From NCBI GenBank assembly GCA_029224465.1, contig JAQXUQ010000006.1:62001-126000 (forward strand): a DNA stretch of 64,000 bases. The letters are read 5' to 3'. The translations under genes and the position numbers were made by a program. Of this stretch, positions 4,206 through 24,299 are shown piece after piece. The stretch is from Bacillota bacterium. GTDB taxonomy: Bacteria; Bacillota; Clostridia; Lachnospirales; Lachnospiraceae. The notes beneath the pieces were generated by a model. It did no database searches and had not been told where the DNA came from. It saw only the letters and a list, made by a program, of their open reading frames with translations. Positions within the stretch are counted from its first letter, which is position 1, and every line of letters begins with the position of its first letter.

Positions 4206-5579
4206 ATGGGCAAAACAAAAATCATCGTCATCGGTGCCGGCGCAGCCGGTCTTATGGCCGCGTGCGCGGCATCGGACGCCGGCGCGGATGTTACAATATT
4301 CGAGCATAACGAAAAAGCGGGGAAAAAGATCTTCATCACCGGAAAAGGACGCTGTAATTTTACAAACGCCTGTGCTGCCGGTGACTTTTTCCAGAATGTG
4401 CCCCGCAACCCCAAGTTTTTATATAGCGCTCTGTATGATTTTGACTCACAGGATATGATCCGTTTTCTTGAGGAGAACGGATGCCCCACAAAGGTGGAGC
4501 GCGGACGACGGGCGTTTCCTCTTTCCGATCACGCATTTGATGTTACGGATGCGCTGGTCCGCCATTGCAGAAAAAACGGCGTAAAGATTGTTTTTCACTG
4601 CGGCGTAAAGGAAATTCTGGCGACGGAAAGCGTGCAGGGGGTCGTTCTGGATGACGGCCGAAGGATCAGCTGCGGACGGGTCATTCTGGCCACCGGAGGC
4701 CTTTCCTATCCGTCGACCGGTTCAACCGGCGACGGTCTGCGCTTTGCGCAAAGCTTAGGCCTGCAGCTGACAGAGACAGCACCTTCGCTGGTGCCTCTCG
4801 TCACAAAAGAAACATGGCCGCTGCAGCTGCAGGGATTGTCGCTGAAAAATGTCGGGGTCAGAATCCTGCCCCGGGAAAGCTCCGAAGAAAAAGATACAGC
4901 CTGCGCACCGGAGGCAGGCGCCGCCGGCAGGAAGAAAACAGGTGCGGCACGAAGGCAGAGGCCGGTCTATGAAGGCTTCGGGGAGATGTTATTTACGCAT
5001 TTCGGCCTGAGTGGTCCTTTGATTCTGACGGCCTCTTCACTATGTGATTTTCATAAATATCCGGAAGGTTTTATCCTACACCTGGATCTGAAACCTGCGC
5101 TTTCAGGGGACCAGCTGGTGAACCGTCTGAAAAGAGAATTTCTGGAGGCACCGGACAGAGAACTCTCAAATGCGCTGCGCCCGCTGTTTCCGGAGAGGCT
5201 TGCGCTCGAGATCGCGCGGATATTTGCTGCATGCCAGGAGAATGGAAGTGTCAAAGTGAGAGCATCTGCGGAAGGAGGAGAATTCCGAAAGGCGCGGACG
5301 CTCAATGTGCGGGAAATTGAAGAGCTGGCAGCGCTGATCCGGGATCTTCCGATTACGCTGACAGGAACCCGCGGTTATGCGGAGGCGATTGTCACAAGGG
5401 GCGGCATCAGTGTCCGGGAATTCAATCCGTCCACGATGGAATCAAGAAAGATCAAAGGGCTTTTCGCCGCCGGCGAGGTACTGGATCTGGATGCCTTTAC
5501 CGGTGGCTATAACCTGCAGATCGCATGGTCCACCGGACATCTCGCGGGGATCAGTGCGGCGGCCTTGGAGGAAGAATAA
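4206..5579 (+). CDS. BaiN/YhiN-like FAD-dependent oxidoreductase (HI0933 family)
   Basis: The 457-residue flavoprotein starts with a Rossmann FAD-binding motif (IVIGAGAAGLMAA). Further family marks are GKGRCNFTNA, ATGGLSYPSTGSTGDG and a C-terminal FAD-contacting segment ending in GGYNLQIAWSTG. Members are called NAD(P)/FAD-dependent oxidoreductases or BaiN-like; the natural substrate is usually unknown. In Clostridia this gene often sits directly before cmk, as here, where its stop touches the cmk start. A TTG at 4176 overlapping the LCP stop would extend the protein by 10 residues; I favour the ATG at 4206. The mid-region has an Ala/Arg-rich insert (about residues 225-255) that may be a surface loop. 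Confidence 0.85.
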   Translation: MGKTKIIVIGAGAAGLMAACAASDAGADVTIFEHNEKAGKKIFITGKGRCNFTNACAAGDFFQNVPRNPKFLYSALYDFDSQDMIRFLEENGCPTKVERGRRAFPLSDHAFDVTDALVRHCRKNGVKIVFHCGVKEILATESVQGVVLDDGRRISCGRVILATGGLSYPSTGSTGDGLRFAQSLGLQLTETAPSLVPLVTKETWPLQLQGLSLKNVGVRILPRESSEEKDTACAPEAGAAGRKKTGAARRQRPVYEGFGEMLFTHFGLSGPLILTASSLCDFHKYPEGFILHLDLKPALSGDQLVNRLKREFLEAPDRELSNALRPLFPERLALEIARIFAACQENGSVKVRASAEGGEFRKARTLNVREIEELAALIRDLPITLTGTRGYAEAIVTRGGISVREFNPSTMESRKIKGLFAAGEVLDLDAFTGGYNLQIAWSTGHLAGISAAALEEE

Positions 5580-8557: not shown

Positions 8558-9469
8558 TTACACATCCGGTTTTTGCAAGATTTCGGAAGCCTTGTGCATC
8601 GCCTGTTCCATTGTAAGAGAGTCATCCAGGGATTTCAGGTAAGCGGCAAGGGCTTTAATGTTTTCGGCGAGATTTTCAGCCTTGCCCTCAGCTTTGCCTT
8701 CAACTCTACCTTCAGCCTTGCCTTTAGCTTCGCCCTCAGCGAGCCCTTCAGCTCGCCCCTCCTTACGGGCTGTCCATTCGATCTCTTTCTTCTCCATTTC
8801 CCAATCCATATATTGTTTCCTCCAGACAGCATTTTTCTTAACCCTTCGGACCGCTCTGTCAATCTGCTGAACATAGGAATCGTCTGATCTGCCGGCCGGT
8901 TTCCCGCCTACGTAGTCGAGAAATGCGCGCAGCTCCGGAGGGACATCGTCCGTACTGCCGGCAGCATTCAGGAAGATCCTTCTCTGCCCGTCGCCAAGTT
9001 CCAGATCCGGGCAGCCGACACAGGTGGAGCGGAAGACATATGCGTACCTGCCCTTTTTGAATGGGTCGAAAGAACACAGGAAGATCACGTATGAATCCGC
9101 CAGCTCCTTATACAACCCGCTGTGCTGCAGCTGCATTTCATCCATCATCGAACTGTAGTAGCGGCTCCTTTTCGGCAGTTCCCCGGTATCCTGCGCCTGC
9201 ATCTCGATGTCATAGTAATTGCCGTTTTCGGAAGAGCAGAGGATATCCAGCCGAACACTTTTCGAGTCCGGTCCTGCTTCTATTGTACCCTCTGTCCGGA
9301 TACTTTCGATAGAGGAAATGTGAATATCGGGCAAAACGAGCTGCAGAAAATGCAGACAGTTGTCAGGATCGCCCATAACCTTTGCGAAAAGATAGCGGTT
9401 CCGGATGGTAAGGCTTTCCCATTGCTGTTCAAGCTGTTTGTAGAGTGTGAGAGTTCTGCTTTGTTCCAT
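8558..9469 (-). CDS. Rpn family recombination-promoting nuclease / PD-(D/E)XK transposase-like protein
   Basis: The 303-residue protein belongs to the Rpn/YhgA-like group, DNA endonucleases of the PD-(D/E)XK fold that promote RecA-independent recombination and are often annotated as putative transposases. The active-site pattern is visible as RLDILCSSENG followed by YYDIEMQ (Asp, then Glu-x-Gln), preceded by FAKVMGD. A C-terminal tail of repeated EG/AEGxAEGK units (8665-8770) is typical low-complexity sequence for these proteins. The ATG at 9469 has AAGGAGGAG upstream; an upstream in-frame extension lacks such a site. It is transcribed opposite to rpsA from an extended -10 promoter near 9640, and has a truncated duplicate downstream. 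Confidence 0.88.
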   Translation of the reverse strand: MEQSRTLTLYKQLEQQWESLTIRNRYLFAKVMGDPDNCLHFLQLVLPDIHISSIESIRTEGTIEAGPDSKSVRLDILCSSENGNYYDIEMQAQDTGELPKRSRYYSSMMDEMQLQHSGLYKELADSYVIFLCSFDPFKKGRYAYVFRSTCVGCPDLELGDGQRRIFLNAAGSTDDVPPELRAFLDYVGGKPAGRSDDSYVQQIDRAVRRVKKNAVWRKQYMDWEMEKKEIEWTARKEGRAEGLAEGEAKGKAEGRVEGKAEGKAENLAENIKALAAYLKSLDDSLTMEQAMHKASEILQKPDV

Positions 9470-9634
9470 GAATTTCTCCTCCTTGTAGGATGGTGCAGGA
9501 GAAATGCGGACTACGGCAAACTCCTGCGGATGAAAAAGTCTGCGTGCATGAGATTCGTTCGAATGAACAGAAGTGATAGAAAGACAGGACCGGCAAAAGC
9601 CGGCGTTCATCAGAAGACGAAGAGCATGTCACTG

Positions 9635-9651: not shown

Positions 9652-9693
9652 ATCCATCGTATCAGTTAGGGAAAATGAGAGTGAGCCGCACCG

Positions 9694-9748
9694 AATAAAT
9701 CAGGCCGCGCGGCGAAGCCCTCGAAGAGCCGGAGTGAGCACCGCGCGG
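9694..9748 (+). repeat. 55-bp direct repeat, left copy
   Basis: Matches 9982-10036 at a constant offset of 288 with about 6 differences in 55 bases. It starts AATAAATCAGG and ends in the self-complementary CCGCGCGG, which also occurs near its start, so each copy can fold into a hairpin. The two copies bracket 165-bp repeat copy A. Confidence 0.8.
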
Positions 9749-9767: not shown

Positions 9768-9932
9768 ATGCAATATGGAAGAAGCGCGCCGGGATGCATA
9801 GAGAATCCAAGACGACTCCATCGGCCGGCGCGGTATTGCCTGAAAAGCGAGGAAATCTATGCAATACGCGCGCAGCCGCCGGAGATGTCTTGAATAATCC
9901 ATGCAAAAGCGGGAAAAAGCGCGCCATTGCAT
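9768..9932 (+). repeat. 165-bp dyad repeat, copy A
   Basis: First and most diverged of three 165-bp elements sharing boxes at fixed offsets. ATGCAATAT is at 0, TGCAT at 27, the CAAGAC core within 38-50, TATTGC at 66, GCAATA at 93, GTCTTG within 114-126, ATGCA at 133 and ATTGCAT ends at 164. Each box has an inverted partner equidistant from offset 82. Sequence between the boxes here is GC-rich and differs from the other copies while keeping their lengths. No coding content is supported. Confidence 0.85.
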
Positions 9933-9981
9933 AGAAAGCGGCCGGCTATCGCCGCGCCCGACCCGCCGCACCGCCGCTCCA

Positions 9982-10036
9982 AATAAATCAGGTCCCGCGG
10001 CGAAGCCCTTGAAGGGCCGGAGTGAACGCCGCGCGG
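9982..10036 (+). repeat. 55-bp direct repeat, right copy
   Basis: Partner of 9694-9748. It is followed by a small hairpin CTCCGGA-TTA-TCCGGAG at 10043-10059 and a further GCCGCGCGGACAA, echoing the right edge of the left copy. With copy A in between, these repeats fill the 612-bp gap between the Rpn promoter region and the exonuclease gene; no gene is seen there. Confidence 0.8.
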
Positions 10037-11386: not shown

Positions 11387-12751
11387 ATGGCAAAACATAC
11401 TTTTACAGGCGGAGTTCATCCCTTTGAGGGGAAAGACATGTCCAGAGACGTGCCGATCAAGACGCTCCTCCCTGACACAGGGGAGATGGTTTATCCGCTT
11501 CTTCAGCATATAGGAAATCCGTCGGTTCCGGTGGTGCGGCGCGGCGATTACGTGCGCACCGGCCAGCTGATTGCCAGAGCTGACAGGGACCCGAGCGCGA
11601 ATCTTCATGCTTCTGTTTCCGGGCAGGTCCTCGGCATCGATAAAAGGAGAATGGCTGACGGATCACTGCAGCCTTGCATTATTATCGCAAATGACGGAAT
11701 CTTTCTGGAAATCGGTTATCCGCAGGACAGGGAACTGTCGTTTTTAACGAGGGAAACGGTTTTAAACGTAGTCAAAAACGCGGGTATTGTAGGGATGGGC
11801 GGCTCCGGCCTTCCGACGCACATCAAGCTCCGGAGCGCTGGGGAGGAAGATATCGATACCATCATCGCCAACTGCGTGGAATGTGAGCCTTATCTTACGA
11901 GCGATTACAGAAGGCTTCTTGAGAATCCGTGGAAAGTAATCAGCGGACTCGCGGTACTGCTTCAGATTTACAAGAGAGCACGCGGATATATCGCTGTAAG
12001 TGAAGACAACGTGGAAGGGTACCGGCTGCTGCGGGAACTGCTGCGGGACGACCCCCGGATTTATGTGAAACGCCTGCGGACCAAGTATCCGCAGGGCGCA
12101 GAACGGCAGTTGATTTACGCGCTGACAGGGAGAACGCTGAATGCGAAGATGCTGCCCCGGGACATCGGCTGCCTTGTCTGCAATACGGACACGCTGGTTG
12201 CCGTGAATCAGGCTGTGATCATGCATGAGCCTCTGATTACGAGGATTGTGACCGTCACAGGAGATGCCGCCGCGCAGCCGGGAAATTTCCGCGTCAGAAT
12301 CGGAATGAGCTACCGGCAGGTACTGGAACAGGCAGGCGGACTTGCGGACGGGTTGAAACAGGAGGATGCCTTGATTCTCGACGGCGGCCCGATGACCGGT
12401 GTTCCGATCAGGGATCTGGATGTTCCTATTACAAAACTCAGTTCCGCGATCGTGTGTCTTCGCAAGGAAGAAATACAGCGGCAGAAAGAGACTGCCTGCA
12501 CGAGATGCTCCAGATGTCTGGATGTATGTCCGAACCGCCTGATGCCTGTAGTGCTCTATCAGGACGCGAGAAAGAGCAGCGCGCGTTCTTTTATCGACCA
12601 CAACGGCCTTGAGTGCTGCGACTGCGGCTGCTGCAGTTACATCTGCCCGTCCAAGATTTCTCTGGCGGCACCGATCATTGCCATGCGGCACGCGCTCCTT
12701 AAAAAGCCGGAGCTGGCAGGAGATTACGCGAGGAGGTTTCAGAGGGAATGA
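11387..12751 (+). CDS. rnfC: RnfC-like electron transport complex subunit
   Basis: The 454-residue protein matches RnfC, the NADH/FMN and Fe-S subunit that feeds electrons into the Rnf ferredoxin:NAD+ oxidoreductase at the membrane. Seen directly are the N-terminal GGVHPFEGKDMS segment, a Gly-rich GMGGSGLPTH nucleotide/FMN region, and two [4Fe-4S] motifs near the C-terminus: CTRCSRCLDVCPNR and CCDCGCCSYICPSK. The ATG at 11387 follows AAAAGG; an upstream in-frame extension to 11318 begins before the promoter-like region and is unlikely. Its stop overlaps the rnfD start by 4 bp. No rnfG, rnfE, rnfA or rnfB follows, so a complete Rnf complex cannot be made from this locus alone. Confidence 0.9.
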   Translation: MAKHTFTGGVHPFEGKDMSRDVPIKTLLPDTGEMVYPLLQHIGNPSVPVVRRGDYVRTGQLIARADRDPSANLHASVSGQVLGIDKRRMADGSLQPCIIIANDGIFLEIGYPQDRELSFLTRETVLNVVKNAGIVGMGGSGLPTHIKLRSAGEEDIDTIIANCVECEPYLTSDYRRLLENPWKVISGLAVLLQIYKRARGYIAVSEDNVEGYRLLRELLRDDPRIYVKRLRTKYPQGAERQLIYALTGRTLNAKMLPRDIGCLVCNTDTLVAVNQAVIMHEPLITRIVTVTGDAAAQPGNFRVRIGMSYRQVLEQAGGLADGLKQEDALILDGGPMTGVPIRDLDVPITKLSSAIVCLRKEEIQRQKETACTRCSRCLDVCPNRLMPVVLYQDARKSSARSFIDHNGLECCDCGCCSYICPSKISLAAPIIAMRHALLKKPELAGDYARRFQRE

Positions 12752-15450
12752 AAAGACGTGTGTACAATGTTTATCAGCATGCGCCGTTTTCCAGATCGGG
12801 ACTTACAACCTCCGAGTGCATGTTTTTCGTGATCCTCTCGCTCCTTCCCGCGGCCGGCCACGGAATTTACAATTACGGGATCCATGCAGCCCTGCTGATC
12901 TTCATCAGCATTTCTTCAGCGGTTCTGTGTGAACTGTTTGCCGACGCGCTCCTGCGGAAGGGCGTTACAATTCTCGATTATTCCTGTATTGTGACGGGAC
13001 TTGTCGGAGCGCTGCTGCTTCCGCCTTCCGTCCCGCTGTATTATCCTGTCATTGCGAATGCCGCCGCGATTATCGGCGCGAAAATGCTTTTCGGTGGAAT
13101 CGGGAAGAACATCCTGAATCCGGCAGCGGCCGGCAATCTGCTTCTGATGATCGTTTTCCGCACGCGGATGAGTGATTTCCACGGCGGTGTATTTGCATCC
13201 GGGGAAGAACCGCTGCAGGCACTTCTTTCAGGTGCGCTTCCTGATTTGAAGGCACTGATCACAGGTAATACACCCGGGAGAATCGGCACCGGAAGCGCTG
13301 TTATGATCCTGCTGGGGGCCGCCTTTTTATTCGCAGCCGGAATCGTGGATATCCTGATTCCTCTTGTTTCGATTCTGACGTTCGCGGTCCTGTTTTCGTT
13401 GTTCGGCGGACAGGGACTGAGCCCGTATTATCTTCTGGTTCAGCTGATCGGCGGCGGCTTCCTGTTCGCAGCGTTCTTTATGGCCAACGATTATACAACG
13501 ACCCCGATGTCAAGAAAGGGGAAGGTATATTTTGGCGTGCTTTACGGAGCTTTCGTCTTTGTTCTCCGAAAGCTGTCTTTACAGGAAGAGTCCGCGGTGA
13601 TCGGGCTTCTTGCCGCGAACGCTTTTGTCAGGCTCATTGACAAGGCCTCTATGACAAAGCCTTTCGGCGTTGTGCAGGCGAAGAAGATTATCCGGATCGG
13701 TACGCCGCAGAGGCGTCCGGCGAGCAGTGTTTTGACGGAGAAAGAAGCAGAGCGGATTCCTGCCGCACAGGTTACGGGCTCGGAGACAGCCGGTACAATC
13801 AGCGATGAGGCATTGAACGCGCAGAGGCAGCGCCGGCCGGTCGAGCACAGAGAGCCGGAAATCCGGGACAACGATATGACAGAGCTGCAGGAAATCGTTG
13901 CAAAAGAGAGAAGACGCGGCGTAAAGGCAGCGAGAAAGAGAAGAGGAGGACAGACGAGAATGGAAGTTATGTATAAGAGCACCAGATCTGACGCAGCACC
14001 GATCACGGCTTCCGCAGCCATTCTGAAGGGTCTTGCGGATGACGGAGGACTTTTCGTTCCGACAGTCATTCCCGCACTGGACAGAAGTTTTGAAGAGCTG
14101 GCGGGAATGAATTATAAGGAAGTCGCCTATGAAGTCATGAAGCTTGTCCTTACCGATTTCACGGAGGAGGAGCTTCGCGGGTGTATAGACAAGGCATATG
14201 GAGAGAACTTTGACACCGCCAAAATCGCACCGATCAAGGACGAGAGCGGCACCTATTTCATGGAGCTGTTCCACGGCCCGACGATCGCGTTCAAGGACAT
14301 GGCGCTCCAGATTCTGCCGCATCTTATGACGACTGCCGCGAAGAAGAACCATCTGGACAGAAAGATCGTGATCCTGACCGCAACCAGCGGAGATACCGGA
14401 AAGGCAGCCCTTGCCGGTTTCGCGGGCGTCCCGGACACAAAGATTGTTGTCTTTTATCCGAAAGACGGTGTTTCCGCGATTCAAAAGCGCCAGATGGTCA
14501 CGCAGCAGGGAAACAATACCTGCGTGATTGCGGCGGAGGGCAATTTTGACAACTGCCAGAGCGGGGTGAAACAGATCTTTACGGACGAAGCTCTCCGCAA
14601 AAAGATGGAAGCCGCAGGATATCAGTTCTCTTCCGCAAACTCGATCAATATCGGCCGTCTTGTACCGCAGATTGTTTATTATGTCTGGGCATATACAAGG
14701 CTCCTTCGAAACCGCAGAATCAGTTCCGGCGATGAAGTCAACTTCGTTGTTCCGACCGGCAATTTCGGCGATATTCTCGCGGCGTACTACGCGAAAGCGA
14801 TGGGAATTCCCGTGCACAGACTGATCTGCGCTTCCAATTCCAACAAGGTCCTGTTCGACTTCTTCAGAACTGGAACCTATGACAGAAACCGCGAGTTTAT
14901 CCTGACCAGTTCTCCGTCAATGGATATCCTGATTTCGAGCAATCTGGAACGCCTGATTTATCATATTGCCGGCGATAACGCGGCGGTTAACGCACAGCTG
15001 ATGAAGGATCTGGCGGAGAAAGGCGTATACCATATTTCGGATGAGATGCGTTCGAAGCTGGATTGCTTTTACGGCGGATACGCGGATGAGGATCAGACTG
15101 CGGATGCAATCCGTCTGATGTATGAAAACCACCGATATGTGATCGATCCGCACACAGCCGTCGCGGCAAGCGTATACGCGCAGTACCAGACGGAAACCGC
15201 GGATGAAACGCCGACGGTCATTGTTTCCACGGCAAGTCCGTTTAAGTTCGAGACAAGCGTCATGCGGGCTCTCGGTAAAGAGACGAACATGGATGATCTG
15301 GATCTTGCGGATGAACTTGCCAGAACAGCAGGCGTCCCGGTTCCGCAGGCTGTCGCTTCCCTTCGCGGCGCGAAGATTCTGCACAAAGGTGTCTGCGGCA
15401 AGGACAAGGCATCCATGCAGTCCATGGTCGAGAAGTTTCTCGGTCTGTAA
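12748..15450 (+). CDS. rnfD-thrC: RnfD-like membrane subunit continuing in frame into threonine synthase
   Basis: One 900-codon frame covers two unrelated proteins. Residues 1-310 are RnfD-like: several membrane helices, NILNPAAAGN, GNTPGRIGTGSA and MANDYTTTPMSRKG. The expected covalent-FMN threonine motif (SGAT type) reads SGEEPL at 151-156, so flavinylation there is doubtful. Residues 311-404 are a charged linker. Residues 405-900 are threonine synthase, which makes threonine from O-phosphohomoserine, with PLP lysine in HGPTIAFKDMALQ and phosphate loop TATSGDTGKAA. An ATG at 13,960 (MEVMYKSTRS) has AGAGGAGGA upstream and would give a normal 496-residue ThrC, so thrC may be translated separately even though no stop separates the two. 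Confidence 0.85.
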   Translation: MKRRVYNVYQHAPFSRSGLTTSECMFFVILSLLPAAGHGIYNYGIHAALLIFISISSAVLCELFADALLRKGVTILDYSCIVTGLVGALLLPPSVPLYYPVIANAAAIIGAKMLFGGIGKNILNPAAAGNLLLMIVFRTRMSDFHGGVFASGEEPLQALLSGALPDLKALITGNTPGRIGTGSAVMILLGAAFLFAAGIVDILIPLVSILTFAVLFSLFGGQGLSPYYLLVQLIGGGFLFAAFFMANDYTTTPMSRKGKVYFGVLYGAFVFVLRKLSLQEESAVIGLLAANAFVRLIDKASMTKPFGVVQAKKIIRIGTPQRRPASSVLTEKEAERIPAAQVTGSETAGTISDEALNAQRQRRPVEHREPEIRDNDMTELQEIVAKERRRGVKAARKRRGGQTRMEVMYKSTRSDAAPITASAAILKGLADDGGLFVPTVIPALDRSFEELAGMNYKEVAYEVMKLVLTDFTEEELRGCIDKAYGENFDTAKIAPIKDESGTYFMELFHGPTIAFKDMALQILPHLMTTAAKKNHLDRKIVILTATSGDTGKAALAGFAGVPDTKIVVFYPKDGVSAIQKRQMVTQQGNNTCVIAAEGNFDNCQSGVKQIFTDEALRKKMEAAGYQFSSANSINIGRLVPQIVYYVWAYTRLLRNRRISSGDEVNFVVPTGNFGDILAAYYAKAMGIPVHRLICASNSNKVLFDFFRTGTYDRNREFILTSSPSMDILISSNLERLIYHIAGDNAAVNAQLMKDLAEKGVYHISDEMRSKLDCFYGGYADEDQTADAIRLMYENHRYVIDPHTAVAASVYAQYQTETADETPTVIVSTASPFKFETSVMRALGKETNMDDLDLADELARTAGVPVPQAVASLRGAKILHKGVCGKDKASMQSMVEKFLGL
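13960..15450 (+). CDS. thrC: Threonine synthase, from the internal start
   Basis: This is the alternative separate product of the second half of the rnfD-thrC frame. It starts at ATG 13,960, 10 bases after GAGGAGG; a second ATG at 13,969 fits the common family start MYKST. It has 496 residues, the usual size of clostridial threonine synthase, with the PLP lysine at residue 112. The good ribosome site favours independent initiation. Whether the full 900-residue fusion is also made cannot be told from sequence. Confidence 0.75.
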   Translation: MEVMYKSTRSDAAPITASAAILKGLADDGGLFVPTVIPALDRSFEELAGMNYKEVAYEVMKLVLTDFTEEELRGCIDKAYGENFDTAKIAPIKDESGTYFMELFHGPTIAFKDMALQILPHLMTTAAKKNHLDRKIVILTATSGDTGKAALAGFAGVPDTKIVVFYPKDGVSAIQKRQMVTQQGNNTCVIAAEGNFDNCQSGVKQIFTDEALRKKMEAAGYQFSSANSINIGRLVPQIVYYVWAYTRLLRNRRISSGDEVNFVVPTGNFGDILAAYYAKAMGIPVHRLICASNSNKVLFDFFRTGTYDRNREFILTSSPSMDILISSNLERLIYHIAGDNAAVNAQLMKDLAEKGVYHISDEMRSKLDCFYGGYADEDQTADAIRLMYENHRYVIDPHTAVAASVYAQYQTETADETPTVIVSTASPFKFETSVMRALGKETNMDDLDLADELARTAGVPVPQAVASLRGAKILHKGVCGKDKASMQSMVEKFLGL

Positions 15451-20920: not shown

Positions 20921-21159
20921 AGTTGCCTGAAATCCTTTTGCTTTATTTGATCCTACAAATACTTTAAACGGGAGTTCTAAATTGTTTCAGCAGCTGTCAC
21001 GCCCTCGGCAGCGGCTCCGGCCGCGGCAATGGTCAGGGGAAGGCAAAAACTGTTCTGCGGACACCCACCTGGCTTGAGGCTAGGAGTCAACTGGCAGGGG
21101 GAGGACAGGTCAATAGGAAATGAGAACCGGTGCAGGCGGCAGCTTGTACCGGCTTTTTT
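20921..21159 (+). ncRNA. ssrS: Probable 6S RNA (RNA polymerase-binding regulator)
   Basis: No credible coding frame lies here, but a promoter, a folded body and a terminator line up. Bases 20922-20941 pair with 21094-21114 (GTTGCCTG with CAGG-U-CAAT, then TCCTTTTGC with GCAGGGGGA after a symmetric 3x3 loop), giving a closed body of 193 nt, the size of 6S RNA. Inside are a poorly paired central region (5' side AU-rich, TTTGATCCTACAAATAC) and a GC-rich apical stem near 20,995-21,060. A terminator follows at 21126-21159. Closing stem, central bubble and terminal stem match known 6S architecture. The family name is inferred from this fold and size, not from a database match. Confidence 0.55.
21126..21159 (+). 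terminator. Rho-independent terminator of the 6S-like RNA
   Basis: CCGGTGCAGGC pairs with GCTTGTACCGG (two G-U pairs) around a short loop and is followed by TTTTTT at 21154-21159. Confidence 0.85.
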
Positions 21160-21233: not shown

Positions 21234-21398
21234 ATGCAATATACTGGCCACCGGCGCCGCTGCATTGAAAATCCAAGACATTTCAAGAAGAAGCAAACAT
21301 ATTGCCTGAAAATCGATGAAATTCATGCAATACAGGCCCGGCTGCCGGAAATGTCTTGGAATATCTATGCAAAATGACGGCGAGCGCTCATATTGCAT
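21234..21398 (+). repeat. 165-bp dyad repeat, copy B
   Basis: The best-preserved copy. ATGCAATAT (21234) pairs with ATATTGCAT (ends 21398); TCCAAGACATTTC (21272-21284) is the exact inverse of 21348-21360; TATTGC (21300) pairs with GCAATA (ends 21332). All are centred on 21316. It shares the preceding CCAATCT with copy C. The remaining bases up to the gene end at 21541 hold nothing recognised. Confidence 0.9.
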
Positions 21399-21540: not shown

Positions 21541-22326
21541 TCACAAGAAGAATTCCTGAATTATATTTTCGATGTGCTGCATATTCAGATGCAGTTTTTC
21601 AGATTCAAAAGTAAGTATCAGGTTATGACCGGAAAGAAAACCTGCTTCCGCATATGTCTGCAGTTTTAATGCGGCATTCTTCCGGTATTCCGAAGAATCC
21701 ATCATACCCATGTGTTCCCACGGAATAAACAATCCGGTTTTCTTCTGCATAACCAGAAAGTCAGGATGCATTGTCGTTGTATTCACTTCCATCAACGGTT
21801 CATAGACAAAATTAATTCCATGTCTGATCAACTGCGTCTGTATCAGCAGTTCACCTTTTGATCGCACCTTTTCACCGTTCAGGCCTGTATAGATCAGAGC
21901 TTCAGGATGGAAATCTTTAGAAGATTTCTGCTTCATCGCTTCCATAATCTGTAATGGACTATATGGCAAAACAAGAAGCGCAGATTTATTCGGATCATTG
22001 AGCAGTTTTTCGAGCTTTTCGGAGGGGAGTCCGTCATAGACTTTTAAGTATCTCTGAATTGCCGTCAGTTCTTTCTGATATTCCCTGATAAGACAAGTCT
22101 TTAGCTCGCGGTTTACGAGTGCCTTTTGAAGCTCGATGTCAGCCTTTGGAATGTTTGAGCGTACGCGGTGCCCATGAACGCGTGTAATGACATACCATTG
22201 CACATATTTGCCGCAGGTGTATGCCCGTATCTCACCGTCGGGCAGCTTGTCAAGCTCCTCCTGCAATACGCGGATCTGATCCTTCAGATAGTTTTCTCGA
22301 AGTGTCATTGCGTCGGTTAGATTCAT
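21541..22326 (-). CDS. Putative PD-(D/E)XK nuclease-fold protein
   Basis: The 261-residue protein has a helical, charged N-terminal half and a C-terminal half with a nuclease-like pattern: VRSKGELLIQTQL (Glu), then MHPDFLV (Pro-Asp), then IPWEHMGMMDS (Glu), then YRKNAALKLQTYAEAG. This spacing (E...PD...(W)EH.G...Y...K...Y...G) is seen in restriction-endonuclease-like folds, though the usual lysine after the Glu is not clear. CAGGAG precedes the ATG. It is AT-richer than its neighbours and lies between two same-orientation 165-bp repeats, so it may be a transferred cassette. I cannot assign a biological role. Confidence 0.6.
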   Translation of the reverse strand: MNLTDAMTLRENYLKDQIRVLQEELDKLPDGEIRAYTCGKYVQWYVITRVHGHRVRSNIPKADIELQKALVNRELKTCLIREYQKELTAIQRYLKVYDGLPSEKLEKLLNDPNKSALLVLPYSPLQIMEAMKQKSSKDFHPEALIYTGLNGEKVRSKGELLIQTQLIRHGINFVYEPLMEVNTTTMHPDFLVMQKKTGLFIPWEHMGMMDSSEYRKNAALKLQTYAEAGFLSGHNLILTFESEKLHLNMQHIENIIQEFFL

Positions 22327-22479: not shown

Positions 22480-22644
22480 ATACAATATGAGCGTACACCT
22501 CTATTCTGCATAGATTATTCAAGACGAAATCAGCTGCCAGCTTCATATTGCCTGAAAATCGATGAAATTCATGCAATACAGGCCTGCCTGCCGGAAATGT
22601 CTTGGAATATCTATGCAAAAACAACAACAGCCGCCATATTGCAT
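22480..22644 (+). repeat. 165-bp dyad repeat, copy C
   Basis: Same length and box offsets as copies A and B; one outer box has a change (ATACAATAT). The central part (22546-22584, beginning TATTGCCTGAAAATCG) is identical or nearly so to copy B over ~39 bases, and CTGCCGGAAATGTCTTGG also matches. The spacers at offsets 9-26, 51-65 and 138-155 are unrelated to those of copy B. Confidence 0.9.
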
Positions 22645-22833: not shown

Positions 22834-23143
22834 AGATTTTCAAAAATTTCAACAAATGCATTGACGGAGACAGACATCCGATACCCGGAATAACAGAGAG
22901 GAAGTTCACCGGCTGAAAGACTTCCTGAACGGGCCGTATGAATTCACTCCCGAGCAGGTCAAAAGAACATTTGATATTCTGCAGCTGCCTTTGGAATGCA
23001 GCAGGCAGACCGAACCAGTAGTTTGATCCGCAGAGCCGGCGTTACAGGCATGAATGAAGTGCCGTCTATGACGGAATACGGGTGGTACCGCGGAGCAGAG
23101 AAGAAGCTTCGTCCCTGAACGAAAACAGGGGCGGGGCTTTTTT
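22834..23143 (+). promoter_or_regulatory. T-box riboswitch leader of pheST, with terminator
   Basis: The T-box sequence AATACGGGTGGTACCGCGG is at 23075-23093. Upstream are stem I features: AACAGAGAGG (K-turn type) near 22,890, GGCTGAAAG near 22,910, and a plausible specifier UUC at 22943-22945 followed by A, fitting tRNA-Phe. Downstream, 23106-23117 pairs with 23126-23139 and is followed by a T-run to 23143, the terminator alternative. T-box RNAs sense uncharged tRNA and then form an antiterminator, so pheST should be induced by phenylalanine starvation. The specifier choice is inferred from context and the downstream genes. Confidence 0.9.
23106..23143 (+). terminator. T-box regulated terminator before pheS
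   Basis: Stem AGCTTCGTCCCTG / CAGGGGCGGGGCT (several G-U pairs), then TTTTTT. It competes with the T-box antiterminator. The 133 bases from here to pheS carry GGCC-rich inverted repeats but no gene. Confidence 0.85.
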
Positions 23144-23276: not shown

Positions 23277-24299
23277 ATGATTCAGGAAGATCTTGAGAAG
23301 ATCAGGCTTCAGGCAAAGGAAGCGCTGGAAAACGCGAAGACTTCGGAGGACATTAACCGTATCCGCGTGGATATCCTCGGAAAGAAAGGCGCGCTGACTG
23401 GCATTCTGCGCGGCATGAAGGACGTTTCCAAGGAAGACCGCCCGAAAGTCGGACAGATGGTCAATGATGTCCGCGCGAAAATCGAGACCAGACTCGAAGA
23501 AGCACAGAAAGAAATCGAAGAGAAGGCGCAGGAACTGCGTCTTGCTTCCGAGACGATCGATGTGACACTTCCTTCCAGAAGAATGCAGAGAGGTCACCTG
23601 CATCCCAACACAGTCGCCCTCCGCGAAATCGAAGACATCTTCATCGGCATGGGATATGAAGTTGTCGACGGACCCGAAGTCGAGAAGGACTACTACAACT
23701 TTGAGGCGCTCAACATTCCCGCGGATCACCCGGCAAAGGATGAACAGGATACTTTCTACATTAACGGAGACATGCTTCTTCGTACACAGACATCCGGCGT
23801 TCAGATTCACGAAATGGAAAAAGGCAGGATCCCGATCCGCATGATCGCACCGGGCCGCGTCTACAGAGCGGACGAGGTGGATGCCACGCATTCGCCTGTT
23901 TTCCATCAGGTGGAAGGCCTCGTCGTCGATAAAGGCATCACATTTGCGGATTTAAAGGGAACGCTGGCAGAATTCGCAAAGGGAGTCTTCGGCGAAAAGA
24001 CACAGGTCCGCTTTCGCCCGCACCACTTCCCGTTCACGGAGCCGTCCGCGGAAATGGATATTTCCTGCTTCAAGTGCGGCGGCAAGGGCTGCAGCTTCTG
24101 CAAGGGAGAAGGCTGGATCGAGATTCTGGGCTGCGGCATGGTTCACCCGCATGTACTTGAGATGTGCCACATTGATCCGGACGAGTATTCCGGATTTGCT
24201 TTCGGCATCGGTCTGGAACGTATCGCCCTTCTGAAATACGAAATTGATGATATGCGTCTTCTGTATGAGAACGATGTCCGCTTCATCAACCAGTTCTGA
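23277..24299 (+). CDS. pheS: Phenylalanyl-tRNA synthetase alpha subunit
   Basis: This 340-residue class II synthetase subunit charges tRNA-Phe as an alpha2-beta2 enzyme with PheT. An N-terminal coiled coil (about residues 1-90) is followed by the catalytic core with motif 2 (VFHQVEGLVVD), the FKCGGKGCSFC zinc-knuckle-like loop and motif 3 (GFAFGIGLERIALLKY). AGAGGAGG precedes the ATG. The T-box leader is directly upstream and pheT follows after 54 bp. Confidence 0.97.
   Translation: MIQEDLEKIRLQAKEALENAKTSEDINRIRVDILGKKGALTGILRGMKDVSKEDRPKVGQMVNDVRAKIETRLEEAQKEIEEKAQELRLASETIDVTLPSRRMQRGHLHPNTVALREIEDIFIGMGYEVVDGPEVEKDYYNFEALNIPADHPAKDEQDTFYINGDMLLRTQTSGVQIHEMEKGRIPIRMIAPGRVYRADEVDATHSPVFHQVEGLVVDKGITFADLKGTLAEFAKGVFGEKTQVRFRPHHFPFTEPSAEMDISCFKCGGKGCSFCKGEGWIEILGCGMVHPHVLEMCHIDPDEYSGFAFGIGLERIALLKYEIDDMRLLYENDVRFINQF

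Follow-up and report, generated by a model that had tools for sequence, protein, structure and literature searches.

The window analyzed here, a stretch of 64,000 nucleotides from a Lachnospiraceae genome (G000; 2.55 Mb in 34 contigs), contains three copies of a 165-nt repeat, the second of which is the element under study (Table 1). Copies 2 and 3 are separated by an ORF of 261 amino acids that has no Pfam or NCBIfam match and no relative in viral contigs; this ORF is treated as a neighbor and is not counted as part of the element. Just before copy 2 there is a weak match to 6S/SsrS RNA on the forward strand at 20921-21115 (L120:1422-1616; 32.8 bits, gathering threshold 46.4, E = 0.0047), and a T-box leader-like match, also on the forward strand (22852-23119; 72.6 bits, below the gathering threshold of 93, E = 6e-14), lies upstream of pheS at 23277. 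Copy 1 adjoins a reverse-strand gene for an Rpn family PD-(D/E)XK nuclease (8558-9610), which has a 12-nt tandem repeat within it, and is flanked by a 64-nt direct repeat (9685-9748 and 9973-10036; 88%). The sequence preceding copy 1 also precedes two neighboring C10 copies. Elsewhere in the window, a forward-strand ORF of 900 amino acids (12748-15450) combines an N-terminal match to NQR2/RnfD/RnfE with a C-terminal match to threonine synthase, a predicted fusion that looks unusual.

Architecture of the 165-nt Element

The three window copies form a gap-free alignment across 165 columns, in agreement with an earlier note on this DNA that gave them all the same length. Its placement of the boxes at identical offsets is also borne out, apart from small point differences (copy 3 starts with ATACAATAT, and copy 1 ends with CCATTGCAT), and the mirror symmetry that it described about offset 82 is exact, with a mean pairing of 0.63 for i + j = 164, the highest of all, compared with 0.28-0.39 in 13 neighboring registers (23 copies). 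Each element is built from block B1 (8 nt), block B2 (20 nt, a half-site plus a CAAGAC core), block B3 (11 nt) and an 11-nt loop followed by the mirror images, and all four spacers are 19 nt long (35 copies). The CAAGAC and GTCTTG cores occupy offsets 40-45 and 119-124, inside the longer boxes previously placed at 38 and 114. Terminal inverted repeats are present, as offsets 0-7 and 157-164 are paired in 91.8% of cells (23 copies).

Comparison of 35 copies reveals six occurrences of a single half-site, TTGCATRRA, in each element, with the orientation - + + - - + and with distances of 29, 42, 20, 42, and 29 bp between the half-site centers. The mean match to this half-site is 7.3-8.1 of 9 positions per box in all six boxes. 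In the third box, B3, TTGCCTGAA predominates, and agreement with TTGCATAGA at seven or more of nine positions is limited to 20 of the 35 copies. The CAAGAC motif forms a second short core, located about one helical turn from two half-sites. Family-wide conservation reaches about 3 nt past each end of the element, which brings the constrained span to about 171 bp.

Table 1. Coordinates of the element copies, the blocks of copy 2, and related places in the two carrier genomes (G000, the window's own genome; G029, RUG304). Positions without a genome label are those of the window.
Feature	Position	Strand	Remarks
Copy 1	9768-9932	+	G000 C6:71768-71932; G029 ortholog at C11:51015
Copy 2 (element under study)	21234-21398	+	G000 C6:83234-83398
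Copy 3	22480-22644	+	G000 C6:84480-84644
Block B1, copy 2	21234-21241	-	TTGCATRRA half-site, minus orientation
Block B2, copy 2	21261-21280	+	Half-site TGCATTGA plus CAAGAC core, 20 bp
Block B3, copy 2	21300-21310	+	TATTGCCTGAA
Block B3', copy 2	21322-21332	-	TTCATGCAATA
Block B2', copy 2	21352-21371	-	TGTCTTGGAATATCTATGCA
Block B1', copy 2	21391-21398	+	TATTGCAT
261-aa ORF between copies 2 and 3	21541-22326	-	Neighbor
Copies with inverted B2	G000 C4:315, C4:10913, C22:12315, C22:13447; G029 C28:46209, C28:58309
Half-element (R2) matches outside known copies, among the matches listed	G000 C14:36056, C31:5990, C16:43444; G029 C27:63708, C15:107651, C11:39664, C23:32660

Copy Number, Length, and Distribution

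A BLASTN search of G000 with copy 2 (21234-21398) returns 37 hits at an E value of 1e-3. Length was probed with a pattern of conserved letters in which two inner gaps were left free to span 8-36 and 6-36 nt (a range of 28 and 30 bases). Applied to the whole genome, this pattern gives 29 matches, 28 of them 71 nt long; as five copies are matched on both strands, the matches represent 24 distinct copies. The single off-length match measures 78 nt, with a fitting TGCAATA located further on, and the reversed pattern gives no match in the same genome. A search with a covariance model, which had been suggested together with a length check, was carried out with a model built on 23 copies in which indels are permitted (R1). 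This model identifies 88 two-strand matches in G000, corresponding to 44 distinct copies (with 150 of 697 first-look candidates scored, weak copies may be missing). Length is nearly constant, with 35 of the 44 copies at exactly 165 nt, five at 166, three at 164, and one at 168. The copies are dispersed across 19 contigs and do not form one array, an observation that bears on the attC-like logic suggested earlier, attC sites of integrons being found in cassette arrays beside an integron integrase. A hand tally places none of the copies on the other 15 of the 34 contigs (about 0.67 of the 2.55 Mb).

The search with R1 covered 99 genomes (G000, 60 other members of the genus, and 38 of the order) and found two carriers, G000 and G029 (RUG304, an uncultured Lachnospiraceae of the same genus), which are closely related bacteria of gut type, neither of them cultured. 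G029 contains 23 distinct copies, 15 of them exactly 165 nt long; in both carriers together, 50 of 67 copies are exactly 165 nt and 63 of 67 are within one base of this length. No copy was found in the 59 other genus members under filters stricter than those of the G000 search, and laxer R1 filters in eight genus members gave a single match, in genome G042 (22.7 bits, E = 0.9).

The variable-gap pattern was also scanned against contigs of a set that holds a single genome for each species, and from which the window's own record is possibly absent; this returned 20 stretches. Matches of 70-71 nt occur on nine RUG304 contigs and one RUG409 contig, and the remaining ten, which have lengths of 50-94 nt and come from scattered taxa, are taken as chance matches. 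The RUG409 contig (ONLK01000094.1, L033) is short and carries a single copy at 4302-4466. It is 95.8% identical to G029 from the edge of the element on, and its upstream part has no match in the G029 and G000 stretches compared. Because the similarity starts at the element edge, either a rearrangement point lies there or the contig is chimeric or misbinned; the contig is read as one of these cases, and RUG409 was left out as a third carrier.

Conservation at Orthologous Loci

Based on their flanks, 19 of the 23 G029 copies are located at loci orthologous to G000 copies. Fourteen clean pairs were used, following removal of two pairs truncated in G029, one rearranged pair, and two with an inverted block. 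In these pairs, which consist of copies recognizable by the model in both species and are consequently biased towards conserved boxes, substitutions affect 56 of 1089 box sites (5.1%), 148 of 1055 spacer sites (14.0%), and 351 of 1545 flank sites (22.7%). The box rate is below the spacer rate in 13 of the 14 pairs, one of the 13 being nearly a tie. The contrast between boxes and spacers is strong at A/T sites (33/750 vs 76/429, P = 1e-13) and weaker at G/C sites (23/339 vs 72/626, P = 0.02); its presence in both classes indicates that it is not explained by base composition. In an earlier split count, spacer substitutions numbered 83 of 469 in the outer and 50 of 474 in the inner spacers.

The 14 pairs contain seven indel events per 2144 element sites (four in boxes and three in spacers) and 89 per 1545 sites of the 60-nt flanks, making indels about 18-fold rarer in the element, although the flank count may be inflated by alignments that were forced end to end. 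This difference agrees with the proposal that the repeat is constrained in length, unlike a decaying insertion sequence. The comparison of the two genomes indicates that the boxes have kept both their sequence and their spacing at individual loci since the species split. Repeats scattered through bacterial genomes are commonly regarded as decayed mobile DNA; in this family, the distance between boxes has been preserved across the split in addition to the boxes themselves. The combination of indel depletion with faster-changing spacers is a simple signature that can be searched for in any genome pair.

A pattern of similar boxes might also arise through concerted evolution, wherein gene conversion of central or box segments would keep the boxes alike with no selection on individual sites. 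Copies 2 and 3 are 97% identical at offsets 64-140 and not in their outer parts, and the restriction of this identity to the center suggests conversion between these neighbors. Also consistent with conversion are a G000 copy (C4_10913) that differs from its G029 counterpart at the same locus in most of the left part, and the shared orientation of adjacent G000 copies (7/7 pairs less than 5 kb apart; G029 has no such pairs). Conversion tracts would carry the spacers too, yet the mean identity between G000 copies is 0.35-0.41 in spacers vs 0.28-0.35 in flanks. Since conversion also leaves the depletion of indels unexplained, we consider it a very improbable source of the pattern as a whole.

The earlier note had listed variable length, a lack of further copies, and membership in a known MITE or REP family as findings that would count against the element. 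The outcomes favor the element on these points, and the known families tested do not match. The observation is confirmed and is stronger than first stated, and the element is judged to be real, lineage-private, intergenic, and selectively maintained.

Pairing within the Element

Of the three suggestions originally made for this layout, the protein-binding array fits best, and neither a folded RNA nor a cruciform is supported for the boxes, which display no covariation and include an inverted B2. Compensatory changes in the boxes do not rise above shuffled controls: standard pairs make up 85.7% of box pairs against 85.8% after shuffling, with 289 of 500 shuffled sets reaching at least the observed level, and the covariation score is 0.109 vs 0.104 (137 of 500 as high). 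Covariation over the fixed columns of the whole element places a central pair, 74/90, first and yields no coherent outer helix. Some paired changes are observed in the central palindrome, at column pairs 73/93 and 75/91. The statement that the spacers do not pair stands for the outer ones (offsets 8-26 and 138-156; 4.21 vs 4.14 permuted) and fails for the inner ones (47-65 and 99-117), which pair within their own copy (6.49 vs 4.85 permuted, none of 5000 as high; 35 copies). One of three control pairings, outer-left with inner-right, also exceeds its permutations (4.53 vs 3.97, none of 5000 as high), indicating that the spacer pairing signal is partly compositional.

Further information on pairing comes from block B2, which lies inverted at its normal position in six copies, each 166 nt long (four in G000, two in G029; Table 1); five of these were included in the half-site layout, and the sixth, which has a changed core, was missed by the filter. 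As the spacers on either side of B2 are equal, the inversion preserves the geometry to within one base. Two of the inverted loci are conserved between G000 and G029. With B2 inverted in six copies and two such loci kept in both species, pairing of B2 with B2' looks dispensable, and the same appears to apply to box pairing generally. The boxes are probably read as sequence, with a hairpin possible in the center only.

These results bear on whether the element is a structured RNA or a DNA hairpin, either a cruciform or a single-strand site, in which the 70 nt at the center would fold into a long hairpin and be processed or recognized. The pairing of the inner spacers and the pairwise variation of the central palindrome in some copies are consistent with such a structure, and at 4 of the 20 predicted consensus pairs at least one sequence has both sides changed. 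The consensus fold calculated with RNAalifold is weak, at only -6.84 kcal/mol with a covariation term of -0.48, and the absence of box covariation above shuffles, the inverted B2 blocks, and the compositional share of the spacer signal also argue against it. Rfam gives no match at gathering in the window; at an E value of 0.5, a search of seven loci (six with elements and one with a G042 array) returns T-box, 6S, and FinP matches, none on an element. Membership in an Rfam RNA family was consequently rejected for the elements tested. Simple ORF calls place 61 of the 67 copies in tandem (28), convergent (19), or divergent (14) gene settings, with 17 sense and 11 antisense copies among the tandem ones, and six copies overlap a called ORF. 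This mixed context reveals no tie to transcription, and the divergent pairs are a further point against an RNA. A terminator or 3'-UTR role was rejected on the same grounds. Taken together, a structured RNA or hairpin is quite unlikely to be the main explanation.

Mobility, Loss, and Known Mobile Elements

Some paralogs demonstrate that the element exists as a discrete unit at unrelated sites. In the G000 pairs C4_22745/C24_63069, C10_100071/C17_100240, and C4_69714/C4_73450, all spacers are alike and the flanks are at background identity, suggesting that units moved at some time. In other cases, the paralogs have common flanks, a pattern that larger duplications would leave (C6_71768 with two C10 copies; C4_73450 with C19_77004). 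No direct repeat at a fixed offset that would represent a target-site duplication is present around the 44 G000 copies, the best candidate being a 3-mer in four copies.

Empty sites were sought in G029 for 17 of the 25 G000 copies that lack a paired G029 copy, using one 150-nt flank piece each. Fifteen pieces matched (C17_63442 and C31_5707 did not), C10_79455 was left out on account of a repeated flank found in two places, and 14 G029 regions were compared. At the 11 loci viewed base by base (all but C17_87000, C10_125282, and C31_66363), there is no clean empty site. Five of the 11 retain a remnant of the element in G029 next to a large deletion, indicating that a copy was already present at those five loci in the common ancestor, and at the other six the element is absent through a gap larger than itself, with no clean junction. 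In the region that corresponds to the window, a right-half element remnant is all that G029 retains of the stretch from copy 2 through the 261-aa ORF to copy 3. Given that neither a target-site duplication nor a clean empty site was found, it is the mismatch of paralog flanks that carries the case for mobility.

A model of half the element (R2) was searched in both draft assemblies. Among the matches listed, nearly all are halves of known copies, seven places lie outside known copies (two of them deletion remnants; Table 1), and no autonomous transposon with element ends is seen. The IS200/RAYT-type transposase (Y1_Tnp), which is present in 44 of 62 genus members, has no match in the drafts of G000 and G029 (96% and 87% completeness). 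Copy 3 (22480-22644) has no match in phages and a single 32-nt match in plasmids (E = 0.5), and the variable-gap pattern has none in viral contigs.

Several known systems resemble the element in part. REP/REPIN sequences are private, palindromic intergenic repeats with paired inverted units. The 165-nt element is far longer, and its carriers have no Y1_Tnp; membership in the REP/REPIN-RAYT group was rejected on the latter ground. The ends of Mu and Tn7 carry several transposase half-sites at fixed distances with variable filler and inverted halves, an arrangement resembling that of the element. It differs from these ends in that no target duplication and no transposase gene (IS200/RAYT type) was found and in that the copies are conserved in place. 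YPAL (RU-2) of Yersinia is similar to the element in being intergenic and not A+T-rich, with a length of 168 bp and internal inverted repeats, and it yields target-site duplications and empty sites (PMC2229807). Unlike YPAL as described there, the 165-nt element displays neither target-site duplications nor clean empty sites at the sites examined. Closest in length and copy number is Bcr1 of the Bacillus cereus group, which is given as 167 long with 31 copies and a predicted conserved structure in the tables of PMC2267715, and which is group-specific and mobile according to a title in its reference list. The 165-nt element is distinguished from Bcr1 by boxes with no covariation, by the lack of an observed insertion-site duplication, and by one block that is invertible in place. 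To our knowledge, box offsets that stay fixed while the spacers change have not been reported for Bcr1. None of the papers listed by full-text literature searches was recognized as describing the 165-nt element.

It is worth considering whether the repeat is an ordinary non-autonomous MITE, in which each half represents a transposon end with several transposase sites and the boxes are conserved only through the needs of transposition. The discrete boundaries between paralogs with unrelated flanks, the location of most copies outside called ORFs, a size near that of Bcr1 (167) and YPAL (168) (PMC2267715), the presence of three half-sites per half, and the R2 matches listed, nearly all of them halves of known copies, are all compatible with a MITE. 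Missing from this picture are a target-site duplication, an autonomous copy among the R2 matches listed, and an IS200/RAYT-type transposase in either carrier assembly. Furthermore, a dead MITE would not be expected to show selection on its boxes and their spacing at orthologous loci once the species had separated. Consequently, a MITE of this ordinary kind is a possible but rather unlikely explanation.

A Candidate Protein-Binding Array

The explanation preferred here, which we regard as having about an even chance of being correct, is that an intergenic element of mobile origin is now kept as a candidate six-site protein-binding array. MITE-like discrete units would have spread before the split of the two sister species, and the copies would now be retained as six-site arrays for one putative sequence-specific DNA-binding protein. 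A dimeric or multimeric protein may read the inverted half-sites 29 bp apart and assemble a compact complex on double-stranded DNA; in such a complex, spacing would matter more than spacer sequence. The complex might organize the nucleoid, act in local regulation, or represent the synaptic complex of a recombinase or transposase that has since been lost. The occurrence of one motif in all six boxes favors an array, since separate RNA helices would not be expected to carry the same motif. The self-complementary inner spacers and the paired changes in the center count against an array that acts purely as double-stranded DNA. A further point against the array is that spacer sequence is not entirely unconstrained, as 56 of 595 copy pairs reach a similarity of 75% or more in the right outer spacer. 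The observations make the question of whether such repeat families are taken over as protein scaffolds directly testable.

A Second Private Array Family

The match with an E value of 0.9 in genus member G042 corresponds to an array of TGTCGAANNNNTTCGACA. The G042 arrays consist of TTCGACAT-N21-ATGTCGAA in tandem with a period of 41-42 (L192-L201; for example, L193:2836-3404). Their pattern matches G042 58 times on the forward and 67 times on the reverse strand and has no match in the reversed control or in the other 61 genus members searched. In ten array-holding stretches, the convergent half-sites are spaced by 29 in 63 of 68 cases, and the linkers measure 12 or 13 in 63 of 67. Five of the ten arrays overlie a mechanically called ORF of 98-196 amino acids, with longer ORFs outside, which makes their intergenic nature less clear. 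The arrays share with the G000 element a distance of 29 bp between inverted half-sites and spacers that vary in sequence but hardly in length, and they are private to one of the 62 genus members searched. In contrast to the G000 element, they use another half-site sequence and are arranged in tandem and not as a closed dyad.

The recurrence of this spacing in an unrelated private array of a related genome may be a sign of a wider, unrecognized system. Some members of the genus might carry species-private, chromosome-wide systems in which a DNA-binding protein with its own half-site would read inverted pairs 29 bp apart and build a complex of fixed geometry at dozens of sites; the half-site would diverge between lineages (TTGCATRRA in G000 and G029, ATGTCGAA in G042) and the 29-bp rule stay constant. 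The shared 29-bp spacing, a coincidence noticed after the fact that could be due to chance, is the main reason for this proposal, which we hold to be doubtful. If true, it would point to a fast-diversifying chromosome-organizing or regulatory system or a genome parasite, for which no description was found. A de novo array search in samples of three genomes (G014, 293 kb; G030, 265 kb; G100, 400 kb), detected nothing comparable; its power is modest, as a family with the sparseness of that in G000, which has three copies in the 64-kb window, would give only about five copies per sample. The best words in these samples form seven loops in G014 (CTGCAG, itself a palindrome), four in G100, and three in G030, compared with 21-33 at the chosen loci of the carriers.
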